Shown piece by piece: positions 6,621 to 41,899 of a stretch of 51,468 nucleotides of DNA. The stretch spans positions 1-51,468 of the IMG/VR virus record IMGVR_UViG_3300020468_000010, one strand, 5' to 3'. Below the pieces are notes generated by a model. It was not told where the DNA came from. It saw only the letters and a program-made list of their open reading frames with translations, and did not search any database. This DNA comes from a virus. Every line of letters starts with the position of its first letter. The stretch's first letter is position 1. The position numbers were made by a program, and so were the translations under genes.

Positions 6621-6911
6621 ATGTCGAGTAAGAAAGACCCACGTTTAGCTAGAGCAGGAGTCAGCGGCTACAACAAGCCCAAAAGGACTCCTAGCCATCC
6701 GAAGAAGTCTCACATTGTCGTGGCTAAAGAGGGCGACAAGGTAAAGACCATTCGCTTTGGTGAGCAGGGCGCTAAGACCGCCGGTAAACCGAAGAAGGGT
6801 GAGAGCGAAGCTATGAAGAAAAAACGGAAGTCTTTCAAGTCTCGGCACGGGAAGAATATCGCCAAAGGCAAAATGTCGGCGGCGTATTGGGCAAACAAGG
6901 TGAAATGGTAA
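6621..6911 (+). CDS. Conserved basic phage protein, 96 aa
   Basis: A highly basic 96-aa protein with segments KPKRTPSHPKKSHIVVAKEG, VKTIRFGEQGAKTAG and KGKMSAAYWANKVKW. This pattern recurs, as I recall, in small proteins of unknown function encoded near head genes in marine phages. It may bind DNA or the acidic scaffold. It starts 7 nt after the scaffold stop. No catalytic motif is visible. Confidence 0.7.
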   Translation: MSSKKDPRLARAGVSGYNKPKRTPSHPKKSHIVVAKEGDKVKTIRFGEQGAKTAGKPKKGESEAMKKKRKSFKSRHGKNIAKGKMSAAYWANKVKW

Positions 6912-7982: not shown

Positions 7983-9128
7983 ATGGCTTTAACAAACTTT
8001 GCCAGCCTGACTTCTGAGCAACTAACCGCGTGGAGTCGGGATTTCTGGCGACAGGCTCGTAATATGAGCTTCATCAATCAGTTCGCAGGAACTGGTTCTA
8101 ATGCAATGGTTCAGCGTATTACTGAACTCACTCGATCCGAGAAAGGCACGCGTGCCGTCATCACTCTGCTCGCAGATATGACCGGAGACGGTGTCACGGG
8201 TGACTACACTCTGGAAGGTAACGAAGAGGCGCTCCGAGCGTACGACATCGTTATCCAGCTCGACCAACTGCGTTTCGCAAACCGAATCGCCGGTCGTATG
8301 GCTGACCAGAAGTCTGTGGTTAATTTCCGTGAGACCTCTCGTGACGCACTGGCTTATGCTATGGCTGACCGTATGGACCAGCTTGCGTTCCTCACTCTCG
8401 CAGGTCTGGCTTACACCAACAAAACCAATGGTGCTCTTCGTACTACGAGCGGAACCTCTGGTCTAGAGTTGGTTGATCTAGAGTTCGCGGGTGATGTAAC
8501 TACGCCTACCTCTAATCGTCACCTTCGTTTGAACGGCACTGCTCTTGCTGCTGCTGACACTACTGCTGTTACTGGAACCGACAAGATCGGTTACAAGGCA
8601 ATTGTCGAGCTCAAGGCATACGCAAAAGACAACTATATCCGTGGTCTGCGTGGTGCTGGCAACGAAGAGACTTTCCACTTGTTCGTAACGCCGCAGCAGA
8701 TGGCTAACCTGAAGCTCGATTCCGACTTCCTGGCTAACGTCCGTAATGCTGGTGTTCGCGGCACTGCCAATAGCTTGTTTGCTGGCAGCAGCAGCCTGAT
8801 GGTTGATGGTGTGATGGTTCATGAGTTCCGTCACGTATTCAACACGGCTGGTGCAACTGCTGGTACTTCATCTAATGCTGGTGCAGCGGGTTACAAGTGG
8901 GGTGCTAACGCAGACGTAGATGGAGCTCGCGCTCTGTTCTGCGGTGCTCAAGCACTTGCAATGGCTGACATCGGCTTGCCTGAGATCGTCGAAGATACAT
9001 TCGACTACGGCAACCAAGCTGGTATCAGCATCGGCAAAATATTCGGACTGAAGAAGCCTAAGTTCAACAGCGACTACAACGGTAGCGTTGAAGACTTCGG
9101 TGTCATTTGTCTGGATACAGCACAGTAA
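7983..9128 (+). CDS. Major capsid protein, N4-gp56 family
   Basis: The 381-aa coat protein begins MALTNFASLTSEQLTAWSRDFW and contains FAGTGSNAMVQRITELTRSEKG, YDIVIQLDQLRFANRIAGRM and DRMDQLAFLTLAG, which match the N4-gp56 family of HK97-fold coat proteins. It builds the icosahedral shell. The gene has its own promoter, a structured leader, the best ribosome binding site in the head region and a strong terminator, all expected for the most abundant virion protein. Confidence 0.93.
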   Translation: MALTNFASLTSEQLTAWSRDFWRQARNMSFINQFAGTGSNAMVQRITELTRSEKGTRAVITLLADMTGDGVTGDYTLEGNEEALRAYDIVIQLDQLRFANRIAGRMADQKSVVNFRETSRDALAYAMADRMDQLAFLTLAGLAYTNKTNGALRTTSGTSGLELVDLEFAGDVTTPTSNRHLRLNGTALAAADTTAVTGTDKIGYKAIVELKAYAKDNYIRGLRGAGNEETFHLFVTPQQMANLKLDSDFLANVRNAGVRGTANSLFAGSSSLMVDGVMVHEFRHVFNTAGATAGTSSNAGAAGYKWGANADVDGARALFCGAQALAMADIGLPEIVEDTFDYGNQAGISIGKIFGLKKPKFNSDYNGSVEDFGVICLDTAQ

Positions 9129-9164: not shown

Positions 9165-9197
9165 CCCTCTTCCCTTCGGGGGAGAGGGTCTTTTTTT
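9165..9197 (+). terminator. Intrinsic terminator after the capsid gene
   Basis: A perfect 10-bp stem (CCCTCTTCCC / GGGGAGAGGG, one G-U pair) with a TTCG tetraloop is followed by TCTTTTTTT. It lies 37 nt after the capsid stop and 19 nt before the pqqA start, so pqqA and later genes depend on read-through or on RNA processing. Confidence 0.9.
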
Positions 9198-9215
9198 AAG
9201 AGTTCGGAGGTAGAC

Positions 9216-9287
9216 ATGTGGACAAAACCTAAATACGAAAAAATCAGACTTGGTTTTGAAATCACGATGTATTTCGCCAATCGATAG
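9216..9287 (+). CDS. pqqA: PqqA, pyrroloquinoline quinone precursor peptide
   Basis: A 23-residue ORF starts MWTKP and continues to [13 protein letters not shown]. This is almost the text-book bacterial PqqA (Klebsiella, Pseudomonas and Acinetobacter types begin MW.KPa and end lEVT.Y...R), with the same length of about 23 aa. The essential Glu (residue 15) and Tyr (residue 19), which are cross-linked by PqqE and become PQQ, are both present in the E-x-x-x-Y spacing. GGAGG lies 5 nt before the ATG. No pqqB-E genes are in the window, so the peptide would feed the host pathway through host PqqD/PqqE. It follows the capsid terminator, giving it access to the strongest transcript. It is too short for routine gene callers. 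Confidence 0.9.
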
Positions 9288-9314: not shown

Positions 9315-9674
9315 ATGCGGATTAAAGCTCCCCAGGATTTACGGGTAACAACCCTGAACGGTGCGTGCGTAGTTTTTCAGGCGGGTGTAGAGAAAGAAGT
9401 TGGAGATGAAGTTGGTCACTTGGCACTCAGTATGGGTGCGCAAATGGTCCAAAAAGACGGGGAGCCGCCCTCGATAGTAGCAGCGGTAGAGACTGAAGAA
9501 GTGAATCCTTTAGATGCGGTAGTAGCTGCTATAGAGCAGCTCGTATCGGAGGGCGCTACGGAAGATTTTAAAGCAAATGGTGAGCCTAAAGCGGCTTCAA
9601 TTAATCGTATTTGCGGGAAGACCGTTCCCCCAGAACTGAGAGAAGAAGCTTGGGACCAAGTATTTAACGGCTAA
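9315..9674 (+). CDS. Hypothetical head-region protein, 119 aa
   Basis: The 119-aa protein has an N-terminal beta-rich part (MRIKAPQDLRVTTLNGACVVFQAGVEKEV) and a C-terminal helical part (AVVAAIEQLVSEG; RICGKTVPPELREEAWDQV). Proteins of this pattern follow coat genes in marine podoviruses. The function is unknown; a head completion or decoration role is possible. Translation probably uses AAGGATGATGGCAT before the ATG. Confidence 0.6.
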   Translation: MRIKAPQDLRVTTLNGACVVFQAGVEKEVGDEVGHLALSMGAQMVQKDGEPPSIVAAVETEEVNPLDAVVAAIEQLVSEGATEDFKANGEPKAASINRICGKTVPPELREEAWDQVFNG

Positions 9675-39006: not shown

Positions 39007-39025
39007 ATTGCTTGAGGAGCCACGT

Positions 39026-40090
39026 ATGGCAGTCAGAAAGCGCGGTAAAAACTGGTCTGTGACCGTCAGCCACAAGGGCAAGCGGTACTACAAGACGTTA
39101 CCTACCAAACCAGCAGCAGAGGCATGGCGCATTCAGAAGAAGGCAGAGCTCATGTCACCCACGGCACATGAGATCGCGGCCAGTGAGTGGACTGTAGATA
39201 TGCTCCTGGACAGATATATCGCGGAGGTGCATCCACACCGACCCTTCGCTCGATCTAAGATGTCCACCATCAAGCTCACTGCTGAACATTTCACAGATGT
39301 CCCTATCAGCTCGCTCGCTCCAGAGCACATATTCCAATATGCAGAGAAACGACGGGCAGGGTACAAGGGTCGAGCGCCAATTGCGGCTTCGACATTGAAC
39401 CAGCAGCTCACGTATCTCGCTCAGACTATCGAGCACGCACGTACACTGTGGGGTGTGGATCTGCCGTCAAACGCCGCGAGAGACGCGTTGTCAGCCCTCT
39501 CAAAGATAGGTTTGGTGGGAGGTAGTAAGCACAGGGACCGCAGGGTGGCTCCCCATGAGCTGATCTCACTGCTCGAAATAGCAGAGGAGCACCGGTCAGG
39601 TTGGATGGGTCCAATGATCAGATTGGCAGTTGAGACCGGCATGAGGCAGTCGGAGATCTGTGAACTGAAATGGGAGTACGTAGACTTCGAGAACAGCACG
39701 ATCTTCATTAAGGACCGAAAGCACCCAACAGAGAAGAAGGGTAACGACCAAACAATACCGGTCAGCGAGGCAGCTCTCGATGTGCTGCGAGAGTGGGGTA
39801 TAGGCACGGCACATAATTGCGTATGGCATCCAAGGCATCGAAAAGGAAAGATCTTTACTGATGTAAAACTGGCAAGCTCGGTGTCCGACAGGTTTGCGGT
39901 GGTCAGGGAAAAGGCGGGGATCGAGGACTTACACTTTCATGATCTGCGGCATGAGGCGATCTCTCGCTTCTTCGAGCGGGGATTGCAGATCCAGGAGGTG
40001 GCTAGGATCTCCGGTCATAAGGATTGGAAACAGTTGTTACGCTACACGCAGCTTACAGCCGCAAGCCTAGTGTCGAAGCTTAATGGTTAA
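39026..40090 (+). CDS. int: Tyrosine-type phage integrase
   Basis: The 354-aa recombinase starts at ATG 39026 with GAGGAG upstream; a TTG at 39008 in frame is unlikely. The N-terminal arm-binding part (MAVRKRGKNWSVTVSHKGKRYYKTLPTK) resembles the AP2-like/DUF3596-type beta domain, followed by a core-binding helical domain and a catalytic domain with Arg in ETGMRQSEICEL, HDLRHEAISRF (HxxR), GHKDWKQ and the nucleophile Tyr in LLRYTQ. It inserts and excises the phage at the attP upstream. It converges with the excisionase-like gene, overlapping by 4 bp. Confidence 0.95.
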   Translation: MAVRKRGKNWSVTVSHKGKRYYKTLPTKPAAEAWRIQKKAELMSPTAHEIAASEWTVDMLLDRYIAEVHPHRPFARSKMSTIKLTAEHFTDVPISSLAPEHIFQYAEKRRAGYKGRAPIAASTLNQQLTYLAQTIEHARTLWGVDLPSNAARDALSALSKIGLVGGSKHRDRRVAPHELISLLEIAEEHRSGWMGPMIRLAVETGMRQSEICELKWEYVDFENSTIFIKDRKHPTEKKGNDQTIPVSEAALDVLREWGIGTAHNCVWHPRHRKGKIFTDVKLASSVSDRFAVVREKAGIEDLHFHDLRHEAISRFFERGLQIQEVARISGHKDWKQLLRYTQLTAASLVSKLNG

Positions 40091-40824: not shown

Positions 40825-41502
40825 CTAACTAAAGAGGATTGATACTACTGTCAGTATCTGAAGAGTCGCTGCCGTGTGATGCGGCGGGGAAAGCGAAAAC
40901 GAAATGTTATAGCTCTTTCGTTTTGAGCTTTTTTCTAAATAAATTCTCGGAGCAGAACTAAGGTAGCTGTAAGGAATGTCGTCAAGATCGATGCAGCCTA
41001 GTACTGATCCTTTTGGGATAGATCTCTGCTCTTTCGATGATATTGCAGGGTTGTTCAACACACTAATATCTTGATCCACTTCAATCCAAGTAATGGTCGA
41101 AGCGTCGTGTCCTTTGAACACTTCAGGCAGATATTTTTTCTTAATGGAGGACTTAGCGTCCGAAGAAAGAAAGGTAATCTCTACAGCGTCTACGGGCGAA
41201 GGCGTTAGCGCAGGGACTAATTTATCTTTGAATGAACTGTCAATCTCTTCTGGTCGGACATTGAGAAATTTTGCTAGCTTGAGAACGGCTTTTTCGTTCA
41301 TCTCGGTATGGCCGTTAAGGTACTGTGAAAAAGCACCTTGAGTCATTCCGAGTCGTTCGGCAGCAGTCTTCTGGGTTATGTCGAGCTCTTGCTTTCGCTG
41401 CTTCCATAACCTTCGGAAGTTCAGAGCTTTTGCTTGGAGCGTTGTCCTAGTTTTGGGTTCTAGTTTAACGACGCGGGGCGTCGCCCCATCCTCCGTTTCC
41501 AT
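40825..41502 (-). CDS. CI-like HTH transcriptional repressor
   Basis: The 225-aa protein has an XRE/HTH_3 domain, FRRLWKQRKQELDITQKTAAERLGMTQGAFSQYLNGHTEMNEKAVLKLAKFLNV, in the N-terminal third and a C-terminal beta-rich part of about 130 aa. ATG 41502 (MEDT-like start METEDG) is preferred because AGGA lies 9 nt upstream; ATG 41514 in frame is possible. It probably maintains lysogeny. The C-terminal part has no obvious LexA/CI Ser-Met and Lys catalytic motif, so RecA-stimulated self-cleavage is uncertain. Confidence 0.8.
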   Translation of the reverse strand: METEDGATPRVVKLEPKTRTTLQAKALNFRRLWKQRKQELDITQKTAAERLGMTQGAFSQYLNGHTEMNEKAVLKLAKFLNVRPEEIDSSFKDKLVPALTPSPVDAVEITFLSSDAKSSIKKKYLPEVFKGHDASTITWIEVDQDISVLNNPAISSKEQRSIPKGSVLGCIDLDDIPYSYLSSAPRIYLEKSSKRKSYNISFSLSPPHHTAATLQILTVVSILFS

Positions 41503-41899
41503 ATCCAATGCCATCCTGGGTTAGTCCAATTAATCCGTTGATAAAATCTTTTTTGGGCTTACTTTCTCGTTCTACTTCCTCCGCTGTAAAGGACTTATTC
41601 CATTGTCCTTTAGAAAGTATTAGCACCCCGCAATCGTTTCCGACAGCGACAATAACTGATTGTCCGTACATGTGGAATAGGTTTAGCCAATTTAATTGTA
41701 GTTTAGACAAATTAAAGTTAACTAAAGTTTTTGGGCGAGCCGGTATCTTAACCCACTTATACTCTACAAACACAATACCTTTTGGTCCAGCATACAATGC
41801 ATCAGGTACACCACCTGTATACGTGTCGTGGATCTTCCAACGATAGACGGAGGAGGGCAGTACCCGATGAATAGACTTAACAAAGCTATGTTCATTCAA
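41465..41899 (-). CDS. PD-(D/E)XK nuclease (VRR-NUC/Hjc-like)
   Basis: The 144-aa protein contains GGVPDALYAGPKGIVFVEYKWVKIPARP, where the Asp in VPDAL and Glu-x-Lys in FVEYKW form the PD-(D/E)xK site, then LSKLQLNWL, as in VRR-NUC and Holliday-junction-type nucleases. It could act in recombination or resolve branched DNA before packaging. The 3' end overlaps the repressor gene start by 38 bp. Confidence 0.75.
   Translation of the reverse strand: MNEHSFVKSIHRVLPSSVYRWKIHDTYTGGVPDALYAGPKGIVFVEYKWVKIPARPKTLVNFNLSKLQLNWLNLFHMYGQSVIVAVGNDCGVLILSKGQWNKSFTAEEVERESKPKKDFINGLIGLTQDGIGYGNGGWGDAPRR

Follow-up and report, generated by a model that had tools for sequence, protein, structure and literature searches.

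A phage-borne pqqA gene downstream of the major capsid gene: a probable source of precursor peptide for host PQQ synthesis

The window analyzed here is an entire IMG/VR record of 51,468 bases, classed as a virus record, and the features discussed below are summarized in Table 1. In addition to the hallmark genes listed there, the window encodes an internal virion protein, tail fibres, and a family A DNA polymerase. The nearest capsids in GenBank were those of Pseudomonas phage KPP25 and its relatives, with 58% identity to the KPP25 major structural protein, and by its capsid sequence the phage is assigned to the KPP25-like capsid lineage. Since an integrase and a cI-like HTH_3 regulator are present, the phage is probably temperate. 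The 23-codon gene pqqA lies between the major capsid gene and a gene of unassigned function. Its location behind the capsid gene had been proposed in the initial annotation and agrees with the assignment of the upstream gene to the major head protein family phrog_334. With terminase, portal, capsid, and integrase genes around it, pqqA is a host-metabolism gene within a true viral genome, as is characteristic of auxiliary metabolic genes. Another gene of the window (6621-6911) encodes a small basic protein (phrog_7595) with as much as 88% identity between phages that are otherwise unrelated, and in 14 other contigs a gene for a relative of this protein precedes pqqA by 9-10 nt.

Table 1. Positions of pqqA and of selected phage features in the window.
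Feature	Position	Strand	Basis or remark
Large terminase, phage hallmark	1785..3431	+	phrog_38
Portal protein, phage hallmark	3434..5542	+	phrog_156
Major capsid protein gene (major head protein), KPP25-like	7983..9128	+	phrog_334
Intrinsic terminator-like hairpin, 10 pairs (7 GC), plus T-run	9165..9198	+	Between capsid gene and pqqA
GGAGG ribosome-binding site	9206..9210	+	Sequence, 5 nt before ATG
pqqA, 23-codon gene, PQQ precursor peptide PqqA (Glu15, Tyr19)	9216..9287	+	Translation, PF08042, TIGR02107
Gene after pqqA, function unassigned	9315..9674	+	In relatives without pqqA directly after capsid terminator
Integrase	39008..40090	+	PF00589
HTH_3 (cI-like) regulator	40825..41514	-	PF01381

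The initial annotation had described a 23-codon ORF behind a GGAGG site as a phage-encoded PqqA, with Glu15 and Tyr19, the residues that give their atoms to PQQ, in E-x-x-x-Y spacing. Translation confirmed both the ORF and the spacing, and the assignment to PqqA was upheld by profile searches in which the peptide scored above the curated cut-offs of the Pfam family PqqA (PF08042; E=3.3e-10, 40.1 bits vs. a cut-off of 21.1, all 19 model positions) and of the NCBIfam equivalog TIGR02107 (E=1.5e-12, 47 bits vs. a cut-off of 20, all 21 model positions). It was the sole PqqA-profile match in the virus record, and no match to the 23-aa peptide was found among PDB chains. Since E-x-x-x-Y also occurs in 2 of the 249 small ATG ORFs (18-40 aa) of the window, the spacing taken alone is weak evidence; the identification is carried by the whole peptide, whose likeness to the family is beyond chance. 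The length of 23 aa (about 22-29 in the family) and the motifs W-x-K-P and R-x-G-[FL]-E are those of PqqA, and the motif residues W2, K4, P5, R11, G13, F14, and E15 occupy the same positions in the viral set described below. The pqqB-E neighborhood usual for the family is missing from the phage copy. This is expected of a phage gene and is not required by the family, as bacteria too have lone copies (PMC9851590), and judged from its sequence the window gene is a real phage pqqA.

The 80 best viral contigs by capsid similarity were taken as relatives of the phage. The search of related contigs for the 23-codon ORF, as proposed in the initial annotation, located it behind the capsid gene in four of the 80 (L122, L141, L143, and L146), and the remaining 76 had no pqqA at that place. 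In L123, with a capsid 97% identical to that of the window, the capsid gene is followed by the terminator and the next gene with nothing between, and other relatives hold different small genes at the same place. The place behind the capsid gene is thus an insertion site, and the lack of pqqA in so close a relative identifies the gene as a mobile one-gene insert. Such an insertion, missing in near relatives, is one of the traits of a moron; as to another, an own promoter and terminator, a terminator is seen upstream and a consensus scan gave no promoter-like site. More members of this phage group that have pqqA in the same position, L243 and L275 among them, came from the pattern scans.

Between the L141-type and L243-type pqqA, about 9 synonymous and 0 nonsynonymous changes were counted (P about 2e-7 against neutrality), of which the codons left open by the search pattern held 5 synonymous vs. 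0 nonsynonymous. The corresponding changes were 5 and 6 between the window and L141 (ratio 0.27) and 11 and 5 between the window and the cellular pqqA of L203, where the ratio was 0.10; the latter is the comparison with cellular pqqA that the initial annotation had called for. Purifying selection, a further mark of auxiliary metabolic genes, is thus seen between L141 and L243, in a small gene and a partly motif-selected sample. The DNA search patterns fixed Glu, Tyr, and most motif residues, so that conservation counted on that set is biased. Conservation was judged on the copies found through their capsids and on the codons left free by the pattern, and for Glu and Tyr it counts as independent only where a copy was obtained through capsid similarity or tblastn.

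A hairpin with a T-run separates the capsid gene from pqqA in the window (Table 1), recurs at the corresponding place in relatives, and was seen in most of the capsid-adjacent loci read. A consensus scan found no sigma-70-like promoter in the roughly 17 nt between the terminator and pqqA. The earlier proposal that pqqA is expressed from the strongest transcript of the phage is not supported as it was worded, because the terminator-like hairpin lies between the capsid gene and pqqA. Transcription of pqqA would have to come from read-through of the terminator or from a promoter invisible to the consensus scan.

The likely host was sought through the peptide type. The pattern [YF]E-x-[IV]RLGFE[IV]TMYF gave ten matches in a genome collection of 84,980 prokaryote species, nine of them within pqq operons, in marine Pseudomonadales and other gammaproteobacterial MAGs, and eight of those nine genomes belong to the family of uncultured Pseudohongiella. 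The cellular peptides of this family and of other marine Pseudomonadales (L202-L205, L207-L211) have the same length and motif as the window peptide and differ from it in 3-6 of 23 residues; they are encoded upstream of pqqB, pqqD, and pqqE, whereas the phage copy stands alone. The tenth match (L206), binned as Verrucomicrobiales, is a lone phage-type pqqA with no pqqB/D/E and may be a misbinned phage contig. Going by the peptide type only, the host is probably a member of the marine Pseudomonadales. A search for a close prophage in 392 genomes from the host order gave none, the capsid matches being only 27-28%.

In the uncultured Pseudohongiella family, pqqA and pqqE were each present in 34 of 137 genomes, 33 being common to both, and this co-occurrence rules out a phage that rescues hosts deficient in pqqA alone. 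Eight pqqA-bearing genomes (2.0-3.8 Mb) each matched the PQQ alcohol-dehydrogenase model 24-49 times, the matches being stretches, so that the number of genes may be somewhat lower. The likely host lineage has pqqB/D/E as well as many PQQ dehydrogenases. Because several PQQ alcohol-dehydrogenase matches were also obtained in eight family genomes without the PQQ pathway, dependence on PQQ seems to be a trait of the whole family. In the genomes G002-G010 and G036-G043 of this family, the matches were very many for the genome size, pathway or not. A literature search found no paper joining 'Pseudohongiella' with 'PQQ-dependent'.

Two degenerate DNA patterns were run against viral sequences, of which the first gave at least 120 viral stretches and the second, narrower one 76. 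Lone pqqA was present in at least 185 viral loci with the ORF read out, encoding 79 distinct peptides, and the ribosome-binding sites of viral pqqA copies were intact. In tblastn searches with the L204 proteins as queries, pqqB, pqqD, and pqqE were detected near none of the viral pqqA loci and near pqqA in 9 of 10 bacterial loci, which rules out contamination of the viral set by host DNA. PqqE gave nothing over the cut-off in 25 whole virus records, and in 24 virus records bearing pqqA the PQQ dehydrogenase domain was absent and a terminase domain was matched in 14. Two matches titled 'Acinetobacter phage MD-2021a' were dropped; the one viewed (CAKLQF020000010.1, L286) has ppk and pqqBCD beside pqqA and resembles a bacterial chromosome.

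In GenBank, lone pqqA was found in the OM43/LD28 methylophages Venkman, MEP301, MEP401, MEP402, and P19250A and in four Melnitz records, with peptides 52-57% identical to that of the window. These Methylophilales phages belong to other phage families and have other hosts than the window phage, and in the regions viewed of Venkman, MEP301, P19250A, and Melnitz-1 the gene immediately before pqqA is not a capsid gene. The hosts of Methylophilales phages live on methanol and use a PQQ-dependent methanol dehydrogenase. Many other viral peptides resemble the PqqA of these phages. The initial annotation had expected normal gene callers to overlook so short a gene, and it is indeed mostly unannotated in viruses: in the five cultured-methylophage records viewed the ORF is complete and carries no pqqA annotation, and in Melnitz a gene model on the opposite strand was annotated over it. 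Several published works on OM43 phages or viral auxiliary genes make no mention of pqqA.

Other neighbors of viral pqqA were also observed. In 11 loci (L008, L215, L221, L241, L249, L251, L260, L266, L271, L272, and L277), pqqA follows by 10-12 nt a gene for an exported, cytochrome-like CxxCH protein of about 414 aa with no Pfam match, and the two genes form a possible phage redox operon. These contigs are up to 340 kb in size; several encode a terminase and one a T4 tail sheath stabiliser. In one of them the same phage region also holds genes for unusual phage cargo, a CHASE2-guanylate cyclase protein and a curlin-repeat protein (L260:5788-7860 and L260:926-2002). In another viral contig a cytochrome c gene (PF00034; L013:6922-7488) adjoins pqqA, and in L105 and L120 the gene upstream of pqqA looks, by eye, to be of the AhpD/carboxymuconolactone decarboxylase type.

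Of the at least 185 viral loci, 123 have an identifiable upstream gene, defined as one of at least 90 codons ending within 450 nt upstream; in 28 of these it was a major capsid gene. Five PHROG families are represented among these capsids, namely 334 (KPP25-like), 371, 267, 138 (T4 gp23-like), and 283. Counted by cluster, 5 of 39 upstream-gene clusters were capsids, with P about 0.001 to 0.009 for random hits on one gene in 50 or 30. In further loci, a phrog_371 capsid gene lies a few genes upstream of pqqA, which adjoins phrog_7595 or a similar small basic protein. The repeated slot behind capsid genes points to late expression of pqqA, during virion production, as far as position can suggest it.

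We consider it probable that pqqA is a phage-borne, one-gene auxiliary metabolic gene by which the phage supplies the consumable PqqA, while the enzymes of the host make the PQQ that sustains electron flow. One PqqA is consumed for each PQQ, and PqqB-E are catalysts. As these enzymes are already present in the host, the substrate would be the only part that the phage needs in bulk. The infecting phage would make the PqqA peptide, which host PqqD would bind and host PqqE would cross-link between Glu15 and Tyr19, and a host protease, PqqB, and PqqC would complete PQQ. The extra PQQ would load periplasmic PQQ-dependent dehydrogenases and so keep electron flow and energy supply going during phage production. 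We infer expression, processing by host enzymes, a rise in PQQ, and a benefit to the phage from the genes and the known pathway. Bacteria with a high need for PQQ can hold extra lone pqqA copies, as in the methylotroph Hyphomicrobium with five pqqA, three of them alone (PMC9851590); these likewise add a substrate gene without further pathway genes, but are chromosomal and not phage-borne. In Acetobacter, plasmid-borne pqqAB raised PQQ by 29% and the full cluster eightfold (PMC7936290), and since pqqAB gave much less than the whole cluster, the substrate may not be limiting. The terminator before pqqA, the lack of the gene in most of the best capsid relatives (76/80), and the lack of a viral PQQ dehydrogenase in the 24 records also count against a role in PQQ supply.

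A lone substrate mimic without pqqB/D/E could in principle compete with host PqqA, and the phage peptide might then tie up PqqD/PqqE and lower host PQQ. One would expect such a decoy to have lost a cross-link residue, but Glu15, Tyr19, and the family motif positions are intact and the score is at equivalog level. With 3-4 of 23 residues differing from the nearest bacterial PqqAs and no decayed copy behind the capsid gene in the 80 relatives, we regard a decoy as very improbable. The same low probability is given to a neutral passenger, taken from a host and carried without selection. Most relatives lack pqqA and small genes come and go at the site, as a passenger might; this is opposed by the about 9 synonymous vs. 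0 nonsynonymous changes between two phage lineages, the recurrence of the gene in many unrelated phages, the intact ribosome-binding sites, and a reading frame and Glu/Tyr pair that were kept, as partly seen, in lineages sampled without motif selection. Both readings thus fit the conservation of the gene poorly.

Two further roles, each judged unlikely, draw on the integrase and the repressor-like gene of the window. Under lysogenic conversion, pqqA would mainly serve the lysogen by raising PQQ-dependent oxidation, not lytic growth, and a small gene set off from the capsid gene by a terminator is moron-like. There is no promoter room between the terminator and pqqA, however, so that pqqA would follow late transcription, and the same gene occurs in phages isolated on growing methylotroph cultures. 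Superinfection exclusion, useful to a temperate phage, would come about if PQQ leaving infected cells filled the TonB-dependent receptor PqqU and thereby blocked competing PqqU-using phages. PQQ does block a PqqU-targeting phage in E. coli (PMC12124388), but this has been shown only in that species, which makes no PQQ, and the late-gene placement fits productivity better than early exclusion.

The supply of consumable substrate for host PQQ synthesis remains the preferred reading of the window gene, and it might be extended to other phages. Tentatively, and with slightly less than even confidence, we propose that unrelated aquatic phages have repeatedly gained a single pqqA, which phages of five capsid families keep immediately after the major capsid gene. 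On this proposal the gene would be a general means of providing the substrate to the pathway while virions are made in bacteria living on PQQ dehydrogenases. That phage-derived PQQ would in addition close PqqU to competing phages is less likely.

The provision by a phage of a fast-consumed part of a host energy pathway has a parallel in cyanophage psbA and other auxiliary metabolic genes, although psbA encodes a protein subunit, whereas the pqqA peptide is itself converted to the cofactor. The window pqqA is not the first phage PqqA, since the Lake Baikal methylotroph phage VP_266 encodes PqqA, which was read as raising host PQQ (PMC7678222, published in 2020). Like the window phage, VP_266 is a phage contig encoding PqqA, but it belongs to T4-like Methylophilaceae phages that also encode methanol dehydrogenase, whereas the window phage is KPP25-like, probably infects marine Pseudomonadales, and carries pqqA alone behind the capsid gene. 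PqqA also figures in a list of genes from reservoir viruses (PMC13188868), and a connection with phage-host interaction has been drawn for a family of PqqA peptides from the ocean (PMC11118758). Within the literature searched, the presence of pqqA in this capsid lineage, its gain and loss as a single gene, its recurrence downstream of capsid genes that are unrelated to one another, and the overlooked copies in cultured methylophages are new.

In sea and lake water, simple alcohols are processed by methanol and alcohol dehydrogenases with PQQ as their cofactor, and the distribution of the gene suggests that phages top up the PQQ supply of their hosts. The system offers a testable example of a peptide-derived cofactor to which a phage would contribute nothing but the consumed substrate, the enzymes being left to the host, and cultured phage-host pairs exist for this, such as Venkman or Melnitz with the OM43 strain H5P1. 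As a 23-codon gene missed by gene callers is nevertheless found in at least 185 viral loci and several cultured methylophages, the influence of phages on this cofactor has probably been undercounted so far.
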